Origin: Sulfurospirillum sp.
Lineage (GTDB): Bacteria > Campylobacterota > Campylobacteria > Campylobacterales > QNZT01
Direction of reading: 5' to 3'
Assembly (NCBI GenBank): GCA_024762875.1
Contig: JANTGR010000004.1
Coordinates: 1 to 40,728, forward strand
Length of the DNA stretch: 40,728 bases
The position numbers and the translations under genes are program-made. The notes under the pieces are model-generated. The model saw nothing but the letters and a program-made list of their open reading frames with translations, did not search any database and was not told the DNA's origin. Shown here piece by piece: positions 12,113 through 21,089 of the stretch. Every line of letters starts with the position of its first letter. The first letter of the stretch is position 1.

Positions 12113-12898
12113 TTACATTTGGACATGTAATTTAGCATACATCCCAGGAAATATTTCTTCATCTTTTAAATCAAATTTTACTCTTATAGTCATGGTATGT
12201 GTCATAGGATTTGCACTAGGCACAATAGCCTGCACTTCACCTGTTGTAATAAAATTGATTGAAGGGATTTCTACTTTCAGTTTTTTATGTTTGTGAATAT
12301 ATTTGAGATTGGATTCAGCGACAGATGCTTCAATGACCAAATCATGTAAATCTACCAATACCATTGCAAGCATACCCGGCATAATCATGTCACCCACTTT
12401 GATCCTTTTTTGGACAATCACACCGTCATTGGGTGCTTTCACTTCCAGATAGTTATATAAGCCGGTAAATTGTTTGATTTTAATCGTTGCCTGTTTGACG
12501 ACCTGTTTGGCTGCCTTTAGCATGGCCTTGGTATTTTCTGCAGCAATATCAAGATTTTCCAGGTCCAGTCTGGTTGTTGATTTGCGTTTTTTTGCGTTGC
12601 GCCTTTCTCTTTGAGCATTTGCCAAATGTGTCTGATACATCTCAACAAATATTTTTGCCTGTTCTAAACCTAAATCAGCCTGTGATTTCATTAAGTCAAA
12701 TTCTCCAGACTGCAGTTCAAACAGTACATCATCTCTTTTTACACTGTCACCCAGGTTGAAGTTGATTTTTTTAATATATCCCATATAGTGACTGCCTATC
12801 ATCTTCTGGCTGTCAGAAACAACGGTTCCAGGTACTGTCAGTGTGGATGCTTGCATGATGGATACAATAAAAAGTAATGCCATTAAAAGTTTGCTCAT
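12113..12898 (-). CDS. Periplasmic adaptor / membrane fusion protein (HlyD-like), not in an operon with a pump
   Basis: Signal peptide, lipoyl-like halves, VKAPNDGVIVQKRIKVGDMIMPG; clear paralog of 15611..16405. Confidence 0.85.
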   Translation of the reverse strand: MSKLLMALLFIVSIMQASTLTVPGTVVSDSQKMIGSHYMGYIKKINFNLGDSVKRDDVLFELQSGEFDLMKSQADLGLEQAKIFVEMYQTHLANAQRERRNAKKRKSTTRLDLENLDIAAENTKAMLKAAKQVVKQATIKIKQFTGLYNYLEVKAPNDGVIVQKRIKVGDMIMPGMLAMVLVDLHDLVIEASVAESNLKYIHKHKKLKVEIPSINFITTGEVQAIVPSANPMTHTMTIRVKFDLKDEEIFPGMYAKLHVQM

Positions 12899-13140: not shown

Positions 13141-14007
13141 ATGAAAAGAGTTTTTATCGCAACAAGTTTGGCAGCATTATTAACAACGACGGCGTCAGCT
13201 GATTTTAGTTTTGGTGATATGTTCACTGATATGAAAGATGCAGTTACCGGCGTGAGTAAAGATATGAAAGAGAGTGTTGTTGAAACTGGTAGAAGTGCAG
13301 AAAGATCTGTAACAAATGTTAGTAAAGATCAAAAAGATACAATGACTAGTGTCAGTAAAGACGTGAGAGATTCTACAATTGAAGTAGCTGAAGATACAAA
13401 AGATACAGCAACAAATGCATCTGCAGATTTGAAAGCAAGTTCTCAGTCAGCTACAAAAGATCTTAAAGATTCAGCTATTACTGCTTCTCATGATACAAGA
13501 GACAGTGTGAAAACAGTATCTAATGATTCAAGAGACAGTGTAAAAGAAGTTTCTAACGATACAACTGACAGTGTAAAAACAGTATCAAATGATTCTAGAG
13601 ACAGTGTGAGTAAAGTTAGTGATGACACAAGAGACAGTGTGAAAACAGTATCAAATGATTCAAGAGACAGCGTAAAAGAAGTTTCTAATGATACAACTGA
13701 TAGTGTTAGAACAGTATCTAATGATACAAGAGACAGCGTAAAAGAAGTTTCTAATGATACAACTGACAGTGTAAAAACAGTATCTAATGACACAAGAGAC
13801 AGTGTAAAAAAAGTTAGTGATGATTCTAGAGACAGTGTCAATAAAGTAAGTGACAATGCTAGAGACAGTGCAAATACAGCTTCTAACAATACAAGAGAAA
13901 GTGTTACTAATGTCAGTAAAGATACTAGAGATAGTGTAAAAGAAGTATCAAATGACACAAGTGATAGCGTTAAAAAAGTCAGTGATGACGCTAAAGAAAC
14001 TAAATAG
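13141..14007 (+). CDS. Exported protein of gapless 11-residue repeats (LEA-like / hendecad helical repeat)
   Basis: Signal peptide MKRVFIATSLAALLTTTASA, then 23 repeats of consensus D-[TS]-R-D-S-V-K-x-V-S-[ND]. Confidence 0.85.
   Translation: MKRVFIATSLAALLTTTASADFSFGDMFTDMKDAVTGVSKDMKESVVETGRSAERSVTNVSKDQKDTMTSVSKDVRDSTIEVAEDTKDTATNASADLKASSQSATKDLKDSAITASHDTRDSVKTVSNDSRDSVKEVSNDTTDSVKTVSNDSRDSVSKVSDDTRDSVKTVSNDSRDSVKEVSNDTTDSVRTVSNDTRDSVKEVSNDTTDSVKTVSNDTRDSVKKVSDDSRDSVNKVSDNARDSANTASNNTRESVTNVSKDTRDSVKEVSNDTSDSVKKVSDDAKETK
13228..13986 (+). repeat. Tandem 33-bp repeat array encoding 23 x 11 aa
   Basis: Protein phases with no indel: 29 + 23x11 + 6 = 288 aa; strongest DNA-level repetition about 13490-13840 with a 66-bp higher-order unit. 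Confidence 0.9.
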
Positions 14008-14168: not shown

Positions 14169-15614
14169 GTGAAAAAAATAATTTTGTCAATCTACGTATG
14201 TGTTTGTCATCTTGCCTATGCAAATGATATAAAAATATATGATAATTTATCTTTGGAAGATGCGGTAAACATCACTAAAAAACAAAATTTAGAGATCAAC
14301 ATTGCTAATTTTGACAAAGAAGTGAATGAGTTGGGAATACGTGTTGCAAACGGCTACAGTTTCGGTAAACTTGATGCTACATTGATGGGGCTTAGATCAA
14401 ATGATGCAGGTAATGTATTTGGTTTTAAACTGCAAAGCAGGGAAGCCAATTTTGGAGATTTTGGATTTGATCAGTTTTTGGGAGCTTTTGGTTCTGCTAT
14501 GACAAATAGTGCAGGTTTACCAGATTTTAATGCATTTGCTGCCAATATGGCAAATCCGGATGCCCAGGCACAATTACTTGGCATTCAACCTGATCAATTA
14601 AATTATCCAAAAGCGAGAAATCATTTTGATACCAAATTAACGTATATGATTCCTCTTTATACGGGCTGGAAATTAAAAAGTTATCGAGATATTGCCAAGA
14701 TGATGTCCAAAATGGCGGGGCTGGATAAAGAGAAAGTGGTAGCTGAAAAGCTTTTTCAGGTTGAAAAAGCCTATTATGATATCTCTTTGTTATCCAATTT
14801 TGAAAAAGATTTGAAAACAATTTATCACAATATGGAAAAATTGCGTAATACAACACTGGAAATGCGAAAAGAAGGCTATGCAAAAAAGAGTGATCTCCTT
14901 GAAGTAGAATCCAAGCTTGCAAATATAGAGCGAATGCTGCGTCAGACAGAGGCCAATACTGAACTCTCTTATCAGTTTTTGAGTTTTTTGTTGAATGCTG
15001 AAGTCAAATCAATCAAAACGATTGCTCTGGATGCTCCTGATTTTTCAATTAGTGTCAAAGAAGTATTGGCAAAAAATCTGGATATCAAAAAAGCAAAAAC
15101 AGGTTTGGCGATACAGTCTAAAATGGTAACAGTCGCAGGGTCATCTTTTCAGCCTCAAGTAGGGGCATTTGCTGAATACGGCAGTAGTGATAATAAAATT
15201 TTTAATGATTTTAAAGATCATGATAGATATACAGTGGGCGTCAAACTCTCTTATAACCTTTTTAATGGCGGGAGTGACTGGGCGACCTTGCAGCAGGAGA
15301 AGCTGAAAAAGCTCAAAGTTGCAAAGCAGGTGGAATTGGCCAAAAAAGGGATTGCTTTAAAATTTAGAAAAATCAAAACAGAGATTAAAAACTTTAATGC
15401 ACAAATTGAAAGTTTACAAAAAGAGGTTGAGCTTTCAAATGAGATATTTTTAAGTTATCAGGCACGCTATGATGAGGGATTGACTTCTATCAATGATGTA
15501 ATGATTAAAGAGGCATTGCAACTGGAGAAATTACTCGGCTTACAGCAAGTCCAAACGCGCAGAAATGAGAAGATTTTAGAATTGGCGAGATTAATATATG
15601 GAGAAAACAAATGA
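14169..15614 (+). CDS. TolC family outer membrane efflux protein
   Basis: 481 aa; signal peptide, LSLEDAVNITKKQNLEINIA, YDEGLTSINDVMIKEALQLE. Confidence 0.88.
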   Translation: MKKIILSIYVCVCHLAYANDIKIYDNLSLEDAVNITKKQNLEINIANFDKEVNELGIRVANGYSFGKLDATLMGLRSNDAGNVFGFKLQSREANFGDFGFDQFLGAFGSAMTNSAGLPDFNAFAANMANPDAQAQLLGIQPDQLNYPKARNHFDTKLTYMIPLYTGWKLKSYRDIAKMMSKMAGLDKEKVVAEKLFQVEKAYYDISLLSNFEKDLKTIYHNMEKLRNTTLEMRKEGYAKKSDLLEVESKLANIERMLRQTEANTELSYQFLSFLLNAEVKSIKTIALDAPDFSISVKEVLAKNLDIKKAKTGLAIQSKMVTVAGSSFQPQVGAFAEYGSSDNKIFNDFKDHDRYTVGVKLSYNLFNGGSDWATLQQEKLKKLKVAKQVELAKKGIALKFRKIKTEIKNFNAQIESLQKEVELSNEIFLSYQARYDEGLTSINDVMIKEALQLEKLLGLQQVQTRRNEKILELARLIYGENK

Positions 15615-16405
15615 AAAAAATAGTCATCACATTGTTGTTGGTAAGTAGTTATCTATTTGCCTTAAAAGTAGAATTATCCGGTACGGTCGTATCTGACAAT
15701 AAAAAGATGTTAACAAGCAGGTACATGGGCTTTATCAAAAGTGTGAATGTAGGTGAAGGTGATCGTGTTACCAAGGGGCAGCTTCTGTATGAGATTGATT
15801 CCAAAGAGATTGACAGTGCAAAGACACAAGTAGAGCTAGGTATCCAGCAGGCACAATTGTCATTGCAAATGTATCGTAACCAGCATACCAATCTTTTGCT
15901 CAATCTTGCAAGAAACAAAAGACTTTTTGCCAAAGATATGGTATCCAAATACCAATTGGAGAGCCTGGAGTTGGCTGAGAAAAATTTGGTTGATATGATC
16001 AAAGTTGCTAAAAAGCAGGTGCAACAGGCAAAAGCACGTTTGACAGAAGTCAATAACCAATACAATTATTTGAAAGTAAAAGCACCCAATGACGGTGTGA
16101 TTGTCCAAAAAAACATCAATGTCGGTGAAATGGCTATCCCAGGTATGCCAGCACTTGTTTTAACAGACCTGAGCAAATTGAAAATTATGACAGAAGTTGC
16201 CGAGAGCAACTTGCAGCATATGCGGATAGGGAAAAAAGTCAATATCGAAATTCCATCTGCTGGTCTCGTAACAGTAGGCCATGTCAGTTCGATTATACCA
16301 AGTTCAAACCCAATGACCCATACTTTTAAAATAAAAATAGATTTTGACAGAGGTGGGAAGTTGGTCTACCCGGGACTATACAGTAAAATATCATTTGAAG
16401 ATTAG
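15611..16405 (+). CDS. Periplasmic adaptor / membrane fusion protein of the RND system
   Basis: ATG overlaps TolC gene stop; signal peptide; VKAPNDGVIVQKNINVGEMAIPG. Confidence 0.9.
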   Translation: MKKIVITLLLVSSYLFALKVELSGTVVSDNKKMLTSRYMGFIKSVNVGEGDRVTKGQLLYEIDSKEIDSAKTQVELGIQQAQLSLQMYRNQHTNLLLNLARNKRLFAKDMVSKYQLESLELAEKNLVDMIKVAKKQVQQAKARLTEVNNQYNYLKVKAPNDGVIVQKNINVGEMAIPGMPALVLTDLSKLKIMTEVAESNLQHMRIGKKVNIEIPSAGLVTVGHVSSIIPSSNPMTHTFKIKIDFDRGGKLVYPGLYSKISFED

Positions 16406-16416
16406 GGAGCATTGAG

Positions 16417-18048
16417 ATGGAAGAAAAGGACATTGCTAAAATACCAGTGACGGATTATGCCGGGAAATTGGCAAAGACATTTATATACAACCCACTAACC
16501 CCTATCCTAGCTGTTTTCTTACTGGCAGTAGGGTATCTTGCCCTGGTAGTGATGCCCAGAGAAGAGGATCCTCAGATAGCGATCAGCGGTGGTACGATCA
16601 TGGTGGTCATCCCTGGATCCACACCCAGTGAGATCGAAAATGTTGTCGTTAAGCCGCTACAGAGAAAACTGCGTGAAATTTCAGGTTTGGAACATATATA
16701 TGGTGTTGCGGCCAATAATGTCGGCATCATTAATGTTATGTATAAAATCGGTGAAAACAGAGAAGATTCAAATTTGAAATTATATGACAAAGTGATGCAA
16801 AATATGAGTTTGATGCCAAAAGGTGCGATGCAGCCGATTGTGAAGCCGTTTGATATCGATATCGATGTGCCTATTGTGACTTTGGCCTTTTATGCGAAAG
16901 AGCATTCTTCTCTCTCTCAAACTGATCTTTTTAAGAAGGTACGGGATATTCAACAGGTGATGAATACAATCGACAATGTATCTAAAACAACACTTAAAGG
17001 TGAACATAAAGAGCAGTTTAATGTCAAAGTAGATCTATATAAGCTCTCTGGATACCATCTCTCATTGGGACAGTTAATGAAAGCAGTGCAGGCTCTGGCT
17101 GTCAATGTGCCTGAGGTCAAAGACCGTACAGCTGATGGTAAAATCGTGATGTTTGGTGTCAAAAATGCGATTAACAGTGTGGAAGATGTAAGAAATGTCA
17201 TTGTGGCGTCTTATATGGGGGCTCCTATTTATCTTAAAGATGTTGCTGATGTTGAAAGCAGTTATGATGTGCAAAACTACAAAGCTGCGGAAATTACACA
17301 ACGCCTGGAAAATGGCAAAATGAGTGACTTAAATAATCAAATAACCTTGTCTGTTTCCAAATTGAAAGGAACCAATGCAGTAAATGTTGCCGAAGCTGTG
17401 ATTGAAAAGCTTGATGAATACAAAGCTGAATTTCAAAAAGAGGGTATTGGCTATACTTTGACAAGGAACTATGGTGTAAGGGCTGATGAAGCAGTTAATG
17501 AATTGATGCATCACTTGATTATTACGATTATCATCATTGCTTTTGTTCTTGTGCTTGCTTTAGGCTGGAGAGAATCGGTCATTGTGACATTTACCGTGCC
17601 GGCTATTTTGGCAGTGACGCTTTTTATCGCTTATCTGACAGGACAGACGATCAACAGGATTACGTTATTTGCTTTTCTTTTGAGTCTGGGACTGCTGGTG
17701 GATGCTGCTATCATTGTTATCGAAAATATCCACAGACATATGCATGCACATGATGCAGCCGAGCGGGAAAAAGATGAGATCATGATAACGGCAACAGATG
17801 AGATTGGTGCTCCTACCAATGTTGCTACTCTGGCTATTATCTTGACGATGGTACCTATGGCATTTGTGGGAGGCATGATGGGTGAATTTATGAAGCCCAT
17901 ACCCTACAATGTGCCGGTAGCACTTTTTGCTTCTTTGATTGTGGCATATATCTTTACGCCTTATTTGGCAAATAAAATGTTAAAAAAACCAAAAGCACAT
18001 CATCATCAACACCATTTTCAAAAACAGAAGCAAGAAGGGGAAAAATAA
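16417..18048 (+). CDS. RND efflux transporter, N-terminal half (TM1-TM6)
   Basis: 543 aa; VMPREEDPQIAISGGTIMVVIPGSTPSEIENVV, LGLLVDAAIIVIENIHRH; ends with KAHHHQHHFQKQKQEGEK. Confidence 0.92.
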   Translation: MEEKDIAKIPVTDYAGKLAKTFIYNPLTPILAVFLLAVGYLALVVMPREEDPQIAISGGTIMVVIPGSTPSEIENVVVKPLQRKLREISGLEHIYGVAANNVGIINVMYKIGENREDSNLKLYDKVMQNMSLMPKGAMQPIVKPFDIDIDVPIVTLAFYAKEHSSLSQTDLFKKVRDIQQVMNTIDNVSKTTLKGEHKEQFNVKVDLYKLSGYHLSLGQLMKAVQALAVNVPEVKDRTADGKIVMFGVKNAINSVEDVRNVIVASYMGAPIYLKDVADVESSYDVQNYKAAEITQRLENGKMSDLNNQITLSVSKLKGTNAVNVAEAVIEKLDEYKAEFQKEGIGYTLTRNYGVRADEAVNELMHHLIITIIIIAFVLVLALGWRESVIVTFTVPAILAVTLFIAYLTGQTINRITLFAFLLSLGLLVDAAIIVIENIHRHMHAHDAAEREKDEIMITATDEIGAPTNVATLAIILTMVPMAFVGGMMGEFMKPIPYNVPVALFASLIVAYIFTPYLANKMLKKPKAHHHQHHFQKQKQEGEK

Positions 18049-19721
18049 TGAACTGGTTGGAAAATTTTGTTTTAACAGTCAATGCCAAAAAATCTAAAAG
18101 AAGAATGGTTATTTTGATTACGTTTCTGGCTTTGTTTGCAACTATCATGATGTTGCCTACCAAACTGGTTCTTGCACGTATGTTACCGGGTAAAAGTGCC
18201 AACACATTTTCTATATATGTAGATACACCGAGTGGCTCTTCTATCGAAGAGACCAAAAAAGTGACAAATTGTGTAGTCGATATCTTAAAAAAAGAGGATG
18301 AAGTAACAAATACAGAAATCTACCTGGGGCAGGGTGCACCACTTGATTATGCGGGGCTGGTAAAAGGTTCTACGTTGAAACAGGGTGAAAATGTGGCAGA
18401 AATGGTTATCAACCTTACTGATAAACATGAACGTGATGAGCCTTCATTTTTGATGATTCAACGTCTGCGTCCTGTGATTCAATCACATTGTGGTATCCTC
18501 AAAGAAGGGACAAACATTAAAATGATTGAGCAGCCTTCCGGACCTCCGACACTTGCTTCAATCGTTGTTGAAGTAACAACAGATGATTTGTATACCAATA
18601 GAAAAATATCTGAAGATGTTAAAAATATTTTGAAACAAACACCTGGTTTGGTGGATGTGGACATCATGGAAGAAGAGTTTTATGACCGTTATGAACTCAT
18701 CGCAGATACCGAAAAAATAAGTCGTTCGGGTATTTCATTGGAGCAATTAAACAAGATTTTGTATCTTGCTTTTGAAGGGATGAATATTGCGGTCAAAAAC
18801 TCACAACACTCTCCTGATCAGATTCCTATCTTTTTGTCTTTGAGTGATGGTACACGAAAAGTTGAAAATATGTCATCTGAAGCCCTGGAGGCCAAGATAT
18901 CTTCTTTGAAACTGATGAATCAAATGGGGATGATGGTTCCAGTCAGTGAGTTGGTGCATATTGAAAAGAAAAAAAGTTTTCCGGCAATCTTTTCCAAAGA
19001 TTTGCGCAGAAGCACGAATGTTTTGGCTGAAACAGACATGGTATCACAAGTCTATCCATTGTTAGAAGCAAGAGACAAGATGATTGCATTCTTTTCAAAG
19101 GATTACAATGTCACCAAAGAGGCTGGTATGTCAACCAATATGTTTGATTTGCATCTAAGCGATAAAAGAACAGGTGAAAAGATCTTACTGCGTTGGGATG
19201 GTGAGATGAAAGTAACACTGGATACTTTTAGAGATCTTGGTGGTGCATTTATTGCTGCTTTGATTTTGATTTTTTTACTACTGGTGATTTATTATAAGAG
19301 TTTTGCGATTTCCGGTATTATCCTAGGTGGTAGTTTTCTTTCTATCATTGGGGTTATATTGGGGCACTGGGTAGCAAACTGGTTTACTTCAGAAACATTT
19401 TTTCTCACAGCAACTTCATTGATCGGTTTTATAGCATTGATGGGTATCAGTTCAAGAAATTCGCTTTTACTGGTTGATTTTACGAAGTCTTTGATGGAAG
19501 AACATGGTATGGAAAAACAAAAGGCTATAGCGGTAGCGACAGCCACAAGGGCCAAGCCTATCATGTTGACAGCCGTGGCTATCATCCTGGGTTCTGCACT
19601 GCTTGCTTCTGATCCTATCTTTGGTGGATTGGGTGTTGCGCTGATTTCCGGTACCGTTGCAGCTGTTGCTGTTTCGCTGCTCTTTGTACCTGTCTTGATG
19701 AGTCAGACTAAAGCTATATAA
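18048..19721 (+). CDS. RND efflux transporter, C-terminal half (TM7-TM12)
   Basis: 557 aa; TAATG stop/start overlap with the N half; GISSRNSLLLVDFTKSLMEE, ATATRAKPIMLTAVAIILGSALL. Confidence 0.92.
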   Translation: MNWLENFVLTVNAKKSKRRMVILITFLALFATIMMLPTKLVLARMLPGKSANTFSIYVDTPSGSSIEETKKVTNCVVDILKKEDEVTNTEIYLGQGAPLDYAGLVKGSTLKQGENVAEMVINLTDKHERDEPSFLMIQRLRPVIQSHCGILKEGTNIKMIEQPSGPPTLASIVVEVTTDDLYTNRKISEDVKNILKQTPGLVDVDIMEEEFYDRYELIADTEKISRSGISLEQLNKILYLAFEGMNIAVKNSQHSPDQIPIFLSLSDGTRKVENMSSEALEAKISSLKLMNQMGMMVPVSELVHIEKKKSFPAIFSKDLRRSTNVLAETDMVSQVYPLLEARDKMIAFFSKDYNVTKEAGMSTNMFDLHLSDKRTGEKILLRWDGEMKVTLDTFRDLGGAFIAALILIFLLLVIYYKSFAISGIILGGSFLSIIGVILGHWVANWFTSETFFLTATSLIGFIALMGISSRNSLLLVDFTKSLMEEHGMEKQKAIAVATATRAKPIMLTAVAIILGSALLASDPIFGGLGVALISGTVAAVAVSLLFVPVLMSQTKAI

Positions 19722-19859: not shown

Positions 19860-21089
19860 ATGAAAAAAATCGTAAGTCTTTCACTTTTGGCAACAACAAT
19901 GTTGTTTGCAACTAATGGTGATAATTTAATAGGAATAGGCGCAGAGTCTCGTGCAATGGGTGGTACTGGTATCGGTATGAGTATGGGAACAGATGCGGTA
20001 TTTAAAAATCCTGCATGGGTTGTTGACAGTAAAGGGTTTAATGCTTCATTTGGTGCGACTGCTTTTATGCCAGATGTCAAAGCTACAGTTGCTGGACCAC
20101 AACTTGGTATGCCGGGTGAGACAAAAAGTAAAGCTGACTTTTCTATCATCCCTACCGTAGGTATCACAGATCATATCGATGAAAATTTAGCGTATGGTGT
20201 AGGTATGTTTGGTGTATCTGGAATGGGTGTTGATTACCGTAATGAAACCAACCCTGGCCTGGCAAATATGAGAACAGCATTTCAATATATGCGTTTTGTA
20301 CCTAGTATCTCTTATAAAATGGAAGATTTAAGAATCGGTGTAGGTTTAACAGTTGCGTATGGTGCTTTAAGTATGGCAGCTTATACGCCGAGTAATCCAC
20401 AAGATCCTACAACTGCAGCACCAAGAGGTGGTGGTTTGAGTGAAGATTTTGGTGTTGGTGCGCAAGTTGGTGTGGGGTATCATGTGACACCTGAGTTCAC
20501 AGTCGGTGCGACCTATCAAAGTGCTGTTGAGACAACATATGAAGATGTCTTTGACTTTGATGCAGGTAATATGAACAATGGTTATGATGATTTGAAACTT
20601 TCTCAACCTGCAGAAGCAGGTATCGGTTTTGGATATACTGATCCATGTAAACTTTATTCATTGACATTTGATTACCACCGTATTATGTGGTCTGATGCTG
20701 ATGGTTATGATGCATTCCAATGGGATGACCAGGATGTATTCTCAGTGGGTGGATCATACACTGCTACAGAAGATTTAGTACTTAGACTGGGGTATAGTTA
20801 TGCCAAGTCACCATTGCATGACAAGACATTCACAGCTGCTACCGTAGGTGGAGCACCATTTCAAGGCGCAAATATAGCGTATTTTAATACACTTGGTTTC
20901 CCTGCATACAGTGATTCACATATCACAGGTGGTCTCTCTTATCAAGTTTCCAAATCAACTGGTATTGATGTAGCATATGTCTATGCACCAAAAGTAACAG
21001 AAACATCCAATGCATTTGGTCCAAACAATACACTGAGCGCTTCTAACGAGCAAAATTCAGTCACAGTAGTTGTAAACTACGCGTTTTAA
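19860..21089 (+). CDS. OmpP1/FadL family outer membrane protein
   Basis: Signal peptide; NLIGIGAESRAMGGTGIGMSMGTDAVFKNPA; C-terminal aromatic residue (VVVNYAF). Confidence 0.88.
   Translation: MKKIVSLSLLATTMLFATNGDNLIGIGAESRAMGGTGIGMSMGTDAVFKNPAWVVDSKGFNASFGATAFMPDVKATVAGPQLGMPGETKSKADFSIIPTVGITDHIDENLAYGVGMFGVSGMGVDYRNETNPGLANMRTAFQYMRFVPSISYKMEDLRIGVGLTVAYGALSMAAYTPSNPQDPTTAAPRGGGLSEDFGVGAQVGVGYHVTPEFTVGATYQSAVETTYEDVFDFDAGNMNNGYDDLKLSQPAEAGIGFGYTDPCKLYSLTFDYHRIMWSDADGYDAFQWDDQDVFSVGGSYTATEDLVLRLGYSYAKSPLHDKTFTAATVGGAPFQGANIAYFNTLGFPAYSDSHITGGLSYQVSKSTGIDVAYVYAPKVTETSNAFGPNNTLSASNEQNSVTVVVNYAF

Follow-up and report, generated by a model that had tools for sequence, protein, structure and literature searches.

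The undecad gene and its product

The window, a 40,728-nucleotide stretch of DNA from Sulfurospirillum sp., encodes an exported protein built mostly of 11-residue repeats (undecads), next to genes of an efflux-type system (Table 1). The 288-residue product is composed of a 20-residue signal peptide, the box DFSFGDMFT, 23 undecads, and the tail DAKETK. Residues 30–282 phase as 23 undecads with zero indels. At a lag of 11 residues, identity reaches 0.53, whereas 500 shuffled sequences do not exceed 0.21 at any lag; lags 11 and 22 both give 0.53–0.54. TRF, which is independent of the protein phasing, detects 33-bp and 66-bp periods at 13485–13979 with 0% indels. The phasing, the lag identities, and the DNA periods bear out the architecture of the original prediction, namely a 20-residue signal, nine residues, 23 undecads, and a six-residue tail.

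The signal peptide ends with ASA followed by D, judged by eye to be a signal-peptidase-I type site. The window protein contains neither a lipobox nor a cysteine. Homologues retain a signal of 20–21 residues, which is followed by DFSF. All aromatic residues of the mature protein lie in the DFSFGDMFT box. The consensus of undecads 9–23 is D-[TS]-R-D-S-V-K-[TEK]-V-S-[ND].

The hairpin downstream of the stop codon is likely to serve as a transcript end or stabilizer; a terminator scan did not call it as an intrinsic terminator, and no T run follows it. An antisense open reading frame of 156 residues (13488–13958, minus strand) runs through the repeats. We rejected it as a gene, since it is a by-product of repetitive codons and similar antisense frames recur in relatives.

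Table 1 Features of the undecad locus in the window.
Feature	Position	Strand	Basis or remark
HlyD_D23/CusB-like periplasmic adaptor, divergent	12113–12898	-	Pfam HlyD_D23 1.1e-28
Undecad gene	13141–14007	+	open reading frame
Sec signal peptide, 20 aa (MKRVFIATSLAALLTTTASA), not lipoprotein	13141–13200	+	signal-peptidase-I type site
Conserved N-terminal box DFSFGDMFT	13201–13227	+	D[FW]SFGDMF nearly invariant among homologues
N-terminal module, divergent undecads 1–8	13228–13491	+	mostly one-to-one orthology with L003; invariant SAER
Expandable tract, undecads 9–23	13492–13986	+	33/66-bp DNA periodicity; similarity between repeats exceeds similarity to L003 repeats
Six-residue tail DAKETK and stop codon	13987–14007	+	translation, repeat phasing
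Perfect 14-bp hairpin just 3' of undecad stop codon	14016–14050	+	fold z-score -6.9
TolC-like outer-membrane efflux protein, GTG start	14169–15614	+	Pfam OEP 1e-32
Second HlyD_D23 adaptor	15611–16405	+	above TIGR01730 RND_mfp cut-off
RND permease N-terminal half, separate ORF	16417–18048	+	ACR_tran positions 2–504
RND permease C-terminal half, separate ORF	18048–19721	+	ACR_tran positions 526–1016
FadL/Toluene_X-family outer-membrane barrel	19860–21089	+	also in several relatives, there 3' of undecad-DUF302 pair

A conserved module and an expandable tract

Comparison with the closest relative, L003, divides the array into two parts. Repeats 1–8 of the window protein are mostly best matched by the L003 repeat of the same number, with repeat 3 as the exception. 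Repeats 9–20 and 22–23 resemble their own neighbours more than any repeat of L003, and repeat 21 (NTRESVTNVSK) has a conserved L003 counterpart. Judged by this comparison, repeats 9–23 have expanded separately in each lineage. The first repeats had been described as divergent, and taken alone, repeats 1–8 reach an identity of only 0.30–0.35 at lags 11 and 22; yet within the family this is the part that is conserved.

The dN/dS between the window protein and L003 is ~0.09 over residues 21–117, an approximate value because dS is ~1 or somewhat less. Among repeats 9–23, pN/pS is 0.36 (mean pN 0.19, pS 0.53); the excess of synonymous over non-synonymous differences indicates that the repeats are kept at the protein level while their number changes. 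These substitution patterns mark the window gene as real and under purifying selection. Meaningless expansion, in which an open, exported DNA tandem repeat has no selected function, would fit a lineage-specific, slippage-prone tract whose antisense strand is open for 156 residues. It is contradicted by the selection acting on the module and, despite the synonymous divergence, on the tract, as well as by a conserved neighbourhood and by helix sectors kept in all 30 homologues (see below), and we regard it as extremely improbable.

Counted from the SAER box, the array spans 8 to 30 undecads, a range that includes proteins cut by contig ends; the length of complete homologues varies about two-fold. 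The MF box and SAER are 29 residues (22+7) apart in 28 of the 30 homologues and 22 apart in the window protein and L003. The seven extra residues sit between repeats 2 and 3; apart from this N-terminal difference, lengths differ by multiples of 11. Seven residues make two turns of 3.5 residues each, so the helical phase survives the indel. The array was predicted to be gapless, which is true of the window protein and its nearest relative but not of the 28 homologues with the additional seven residues. As the 29-residue form is present even in the most distant member, L038, the gapless state probably derives from a seven-residue loss.

Distribution and genomic neighbourhood of the family

The undecad family is previously undescribed and so far confined to Campylobacterota. 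A literature search returned no paper on the family and no experiment or expression data for it. A scan of GTDB contigs yielded 20 relatives, all in Campylobacterota records, and 19 of 59 related genomes contain a match. A profile of the N-terminal part detects the undecad gene in 12 of 298 well-assembled Campylobacterota genomes, belonging to 7 of 59 genera. We collected 30 distinct full or nearly full homologues, all from Campylobacterota. Some genomes carry three or four tandem copies of the gene (L015, L016, L018). Relatives of the undecad protein were found neither in viral contigs (IMG/VR) nor in PLSDB plasmids, and a mobile-element origin of the gene was rejected for this reason.

The surroundings of the gene were compared by tblastn of the locus proteins against 29 loci with an upstream flank and 27 with a downstream flank. 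In the window, the undecad gene is directly followed on its 3' side by the series TolC-HlyD-RND(N)-RND(C)-FadL. A divergent gene for a CxxCH protein of ~136 residues is present in 25 of the 29 loci. The divergent upstream HlyD_D23 adaptor is equally frequent (25/29), and three of the four remaining loci have a downstream adaptor. An exported DUF302 protein of ~380–1050 residues is encoded downstream in 20 of 27 loci. Within the retrieved flanks, many of which are incomplete, RND genes lie in 16 loci and a gene for a FadL-type barrel in several. Neither a CxxCH nor a DUF302 gene is present at the undecad locus of the window or of L003; weaker relatives of both proteins are encoded elsewhere in the window's genome. 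The adjacency to an efflux system that had been pointed out is thus part of a conserved association, but its constant partners are the HlyD-type adaptor and the CxxCH and DUF302 proteins, whereas RND genes are frequent without being constant.

The split RND permease of the window (16417–19721) recurs in many relatives, and loci L012 and L013 have a single RND open reading frame of ~1030 residues nearby. The ~136-residue CxxCH proteins (L005:5401-5814, minus strand, and homologues) are exported and carry CxxCH and ...RKW at the C terminus; this family has no convincing Pfam or NCBIfam match. The exported DUF302 proteins (L005:7317-10463 and homologues) have a duplicated N-terminal unit in some members. 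A distant DUF302 relative, G000:C84, shares a small contig with a SoxZ gene. In three related genomes (L009, L012, L013) the locus is adjoined by a phosphagen (arginine/creatine) kinase-like gene, recognized by eye from the motif STRIRVGRN.

Geometry of the undecad helix

The hydrophobic moment peaks at 98.2–98.4 degrees per residue in 30 of 30 homologues (98.2 in the window protein). A rotation of ~98.2 degrees per residue places 11 residues in three turns, as in a 3-11 helix. The mean moment of 33-residue windows, calculated with the Fauchere-Pliska scale, is 0.366 for the window protein and 0.118 ± 0.018 for its shuffles. On the helical wheel, the apolar positions 9, 2, and 6 are located at 65, 98, and 131 degrees and are flanked by Ser5 and Ser10, with serine at 85–90% on both borders of the stripe. 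The hydrophobic stripe at positions 6 and 9, noticed originally, is therefore present and is joined by a third, weaker position 2, giving a 3-4-4 spacing. Arg and Lys (positions 3 and 7) occupy one side of the wheel, and Asp and Glu (positions 4, 8, and 1) the other. Relative to the apolar direction (0), the mean basic direction is at 121–140 degrees and the acidic one at 186–233 degrees in 30 of 30 proteins. The three sectors persist despite residue changes, for example in a tract with DVKTSTTDISD instead of DTRDSVKTVSN.

The stripe is narrow. A hydrophobic residue stands at position 2 in 75% of module repeats versus 44% of the later ones, and in the expandable tract serine is frequent there. 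The hydrophobic fraction is 0.22 in the window protein and 0.19 in its repeats 9–23. The mean hydrophobicity is negative, charges contribute part of the moment, and the net charge is -13. The HeliQuest discriminant exceeds 0.68 in only 11 of 251 windows of 18 residues. Among the 30 homologues, proline is confined to the tails of two and cysteine occurs in none. A copper-binding metal buffer was set aside, as cysteine is absent and histidine and methionine are almost absent from the repeats.

AlphaFold places helices at residues 24–58, 69–169, and 175–286, with a pLDDT of 46 (very low confidence). The best Foldseek match of this model has an E-value of 7.7, and the model of the distant short homologue L038 contains helices only (pLDDT 52). 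We therefore abandoned fold comparison as a route to relatives. A sequence search for relatives of solved structure gave two chance-level matches only (E 0.62 and 0.74). At the level of sequence, the moment peak and the sectors lend good support to the long amphipathic helix of the original prediction, here of the 3-11 type. The AlphaFold model, at its very low confidence, speaks neither for nor against helix formation.

The spacing of positions 6, 9, and 2 also fits a hendecad register exactly. Two or more chains could pair via positions 6, 9, 10, and 2 (a, d, e, and h = V, V, S, and T) into a coiled-coil rod, a soluble periplasmic spacer that might, for example, brace or bridge the adaptor, RND, and outer-membrane parts, with the tract setting its length. 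Serines at positions 5 and 10 would permit close helix packing, the complementary basic and acidic sectors could form interhelical salt bridges, and the locus also contains genes for components of a trans-envelope machine. However, the V-V-S-T core is weak and lacks the Leu and Ile typical of stable coiled coils, in the expandable tract above all; the AlphaFold monomer model is uninformative on pairing. The two-fold length variation of complete homologues suits a fixed envelope width poorly, and no coiled-coil family passes its cut-off for the window protein or 20 homologues. We consider such a rod possible, if somewhat unlikely.

Resemblance to known protein families

The window protein scores below the cut-off of every Pfam and NCBIfam model, and no homologue belongs to a characterised family. 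The best Pfam resemblance is to Apolipoprotein A1/A4/E (PF01442), with 37.8 bits (E 2e-9) for the window protein, below the gathering cut-off of 90, and with matches at E<0.01 in 18 of 20 homologues. ApoLp-III (PF07464) scores 26.1 bits against a cut-off of 36.3; at the same E-value limit, it matches 15 of the 20 homologues. What the window protein shares with apolipoproteins is the 11/22-residue amphipathic periodicity and the moment peak; in contrast to its helix, those of apoA-I are punctuated by prolines. Synuclein (PF01387) follows with E 0.0028 (18.3 bits, gathering cut-off 23.3) and matches in 2 of 20 homologues. The synuclein motif has the residue phase T2, V6, V9, which the window protein shares. 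YtxH is a further weak resemblance. We attribute the Apolipoprotein, ApoLp-III, YtxH, and synuclein resemblances to repeat geometry; the scores do not support homology. The best NCBIfam match, the Ag473 family lipoprotein (NF047840), lies in the repeats (E 8e-8, 33.1 bits against a cut-off of 100) and differs from the window protein, which has no lipobox and no cysteine.

Kinship with LEA proteins, suggested by the 11-residue period, did not hold up: LEA_4 is absent from the profile matches of the window protein at E<1 and of 20 homologues at E<0.01, and membership was rejected. Group 3 LEA motifs are rich in Ala, Lys, and Glu; the window protein shares their 11-residue periodicity and hydrophilicity, but its motif is rich in Ser, Asp, and Val. 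A LEA-like protectant would be a mostly disordered periplasmic shield of envelope proteins or membranes under osmotic, redox, metal, or drying stress that becomes helical only upon crowding or dehydration. The 11-residue period, the very high hydrophilicity, the low sequence complexity, and the absence of cysteine agree with this, and the tandem extra copies in some genomes would suit dosage. The near absence of proline and the few glycines are unusual for disordered shields, and the failure to match LEA_4 also counts against this reading. The conserved N-terminal module and the specific neighbourhood point to a particular partner or surface and make such a shield less likely; we rate it as unlikely.

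In human Plin4, the amphipathic region consists of 29 x 33 residues in a long 11-mer array without gaps; its apolar face is weak and rich in V and T, its polar face is informative, and aromatics are nearly lacking (PMC5889406, PMC8064757). HeliQuest moments published for helices proven to act on lipid surfaces range from 0.257 in Plin4 through 0.30 in alpha-synuclein and 0.35 in Plin3 to 0.39 in apoA-I (PMC5889406). The window protein resembles Plin4 in its gapless 11-mer array, its T/V apolar stripe, and its moment (0.366 versus 0.257, an approximate comparison, made here with 33-residue windows). Plin4 is cytosolic and net positive, whereas the window protein is exported and acidic. The hydrophobic fraction of the window protein is lower than that of Plin4 (0.22 versus 0.35) and lies below the 0.35–0.47 of Plin3, Plin4, and synuclein, and its charged fraction is higher (0.37 versus 0.15 in Plin4). 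Homology to Plin4 is not detectable beyond repeat composition.

A putative surface-coating helix of the periplasm

We tentatively favour, at somewhat less than even confidence, the reading that the undecad protein is an exported amphipathic helix that coats a surface by a mechanism like that of perilipin-4, synuclein, and apolipoproteins, without being their homologue. The moment peak common to all homologues points to it, as does a moment approximately comparable with those of proven lipid-surface helices. The T2-V6-V9 pattern is of the synuclein and perilipin type. The three sectors are kept while the residues change, proline is nearly absent and cysteine absent, and the seven-residue indel preserves the phase. 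The purifying selection on the module and the envelope-type neighbourhood agree with this reading, and the best family resemblances are to lipid-surface helices, though below gathering scores. Against it stand the narrow weak stripe with its negative mean hydrophobicity, the net charge, which is unfavourable on anionic membranes, a discriminant mostly below threshold, and the low pLDDT. T-to-S changes abolish the binding of Plin4 to lipid droplets, which also counts against a coat, given the frequent serine at position 2 of the tract.

According to the surface-coat model, Sec exports the acidic, very hydrophilic chain, presumably unfolded. On a hydrophobic periplasmic interface, it would fold into one continuous 3-11 helix of up to ~38 nm that lies flat. 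Candidate interfaces are the inner face of the outer membrane, the outer face of the inner membrane, and hydrophobic particles or cargo. The V9-T2-V6 stripe would face the surface with Ser5 and Ser10 at its borders. The conserved N-terminal box and repeats 1–8, in which position 2 is mostly hydrophobic, may act as a specific anchor, and the variable tract may add avidity and coverage. Neighbouring helices could pack laterally, basic edge to acidic edge, and form a coat. We hypothesize that the coat serves an envelope function common to the HlyD-type adaptor, the CxxCH and DUF302 proteins, and the RND pump.

Extracytoplasmic particles of elemental sulfur or polysulfide in sulfur-metabolising Campylobacterota would be an attractive special case, with the protein as a coat or solubilizer analogous to sulfur globule proteins. 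Many Campylobacterota with the undecad cluster also carry Sox genes; SoxZ is present in 9 of 12 carrier genomes versus 60 of 286 others (Fisher p = 1.5e-4), an association confounded by descent, as carriers are concentrated in few families and 3 of the 12 lack SoxZ. In Acidithiobacillia, soxA and soxB flank a gene of DUF302, the downstream partner family (PMC5037610). In Sulfurovum indicum, HlyD-family and TolC genes, which may or may not belong to an undecad locus, rise on elemental sulfur (PMC10045233). SgpD of Allochromatium vinosum is Sec-exported and coats sulfur globules, and its gene adjoins a hydrophobe/amphiphile exporter gene (PMC10386293). The proposed coat would likewise be a Sec-exported structural protein on a hydrophobic particle with an exporter gene adjacent. 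SgpD is, however, unrelated: it has regularly spaced prolines, is almost confined to Chromatiaceae, and has no described undecads; the undecad protein, for its part, has no cysteine. The links to sulfur are all indirect, and we regard a sulfur coat as improbable.

The most familiar long 11-mer surface helices belong to eukaryotic proteins of the cytosol or plasma. Relative to known amphipathic 11-mer repeat proteins, the undecad protein is novel in being exported, acidic, modular, and bacterial. We speculate, with considerable doubt, that it is a bacterial periplasmic counterpart of perilipin: a modular, length-evolving three-sector helix that assembles into a coat on hydrophobic surfaces or particles, perhaps of elemental sulfur, within a dedicated adaptor/CxxCH/DUF302/RND system of Campylobacterota. 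If so, it would offer a convergent case in which to test how surface binding depends on length, weak hydrophobicity, and the pattern of the polar face; the family supplies a regular wheel sectored by charge and tracts whose length varies naturally. The undecad gene is also a first handle on an uncharacterised conserved envelope cluster of orphan adaptor, CxxCH protein, DUF302 protein, and split RND pump.

Related undecad proteins and locus variants

The search for a paralogue in the window's own genome gave a sole weak match, G000:C11, which was rejected because it is another kind of lipoprotein, with a fused cytochrome c domain. G000:C11 (L002:1243-2010, minus strand), L039, and L040 are predicted lipoproteins in which undecads of the KEAAxxAVEATK type are fused to a CxxCH cytochrome-c domain. 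They occur in the window's genome and its relatives, form a separate undecad family, and may tether an electron carrier.

Locus L068 (G240:C1, ~1252091) contains a near-perfect palindrome of ~1.4 kb per side centred inside the undecad gene. It yields two head-to-head truncated gene copies and is probably an assembly chimera. The undecad proteins of L017, L019, and L028 end in the C-terminal motif ISxDDYKEYxxLKAK. In L017 and L019, a small neighbouring protein ends with a similar motif, and a shared docking signal is possible.
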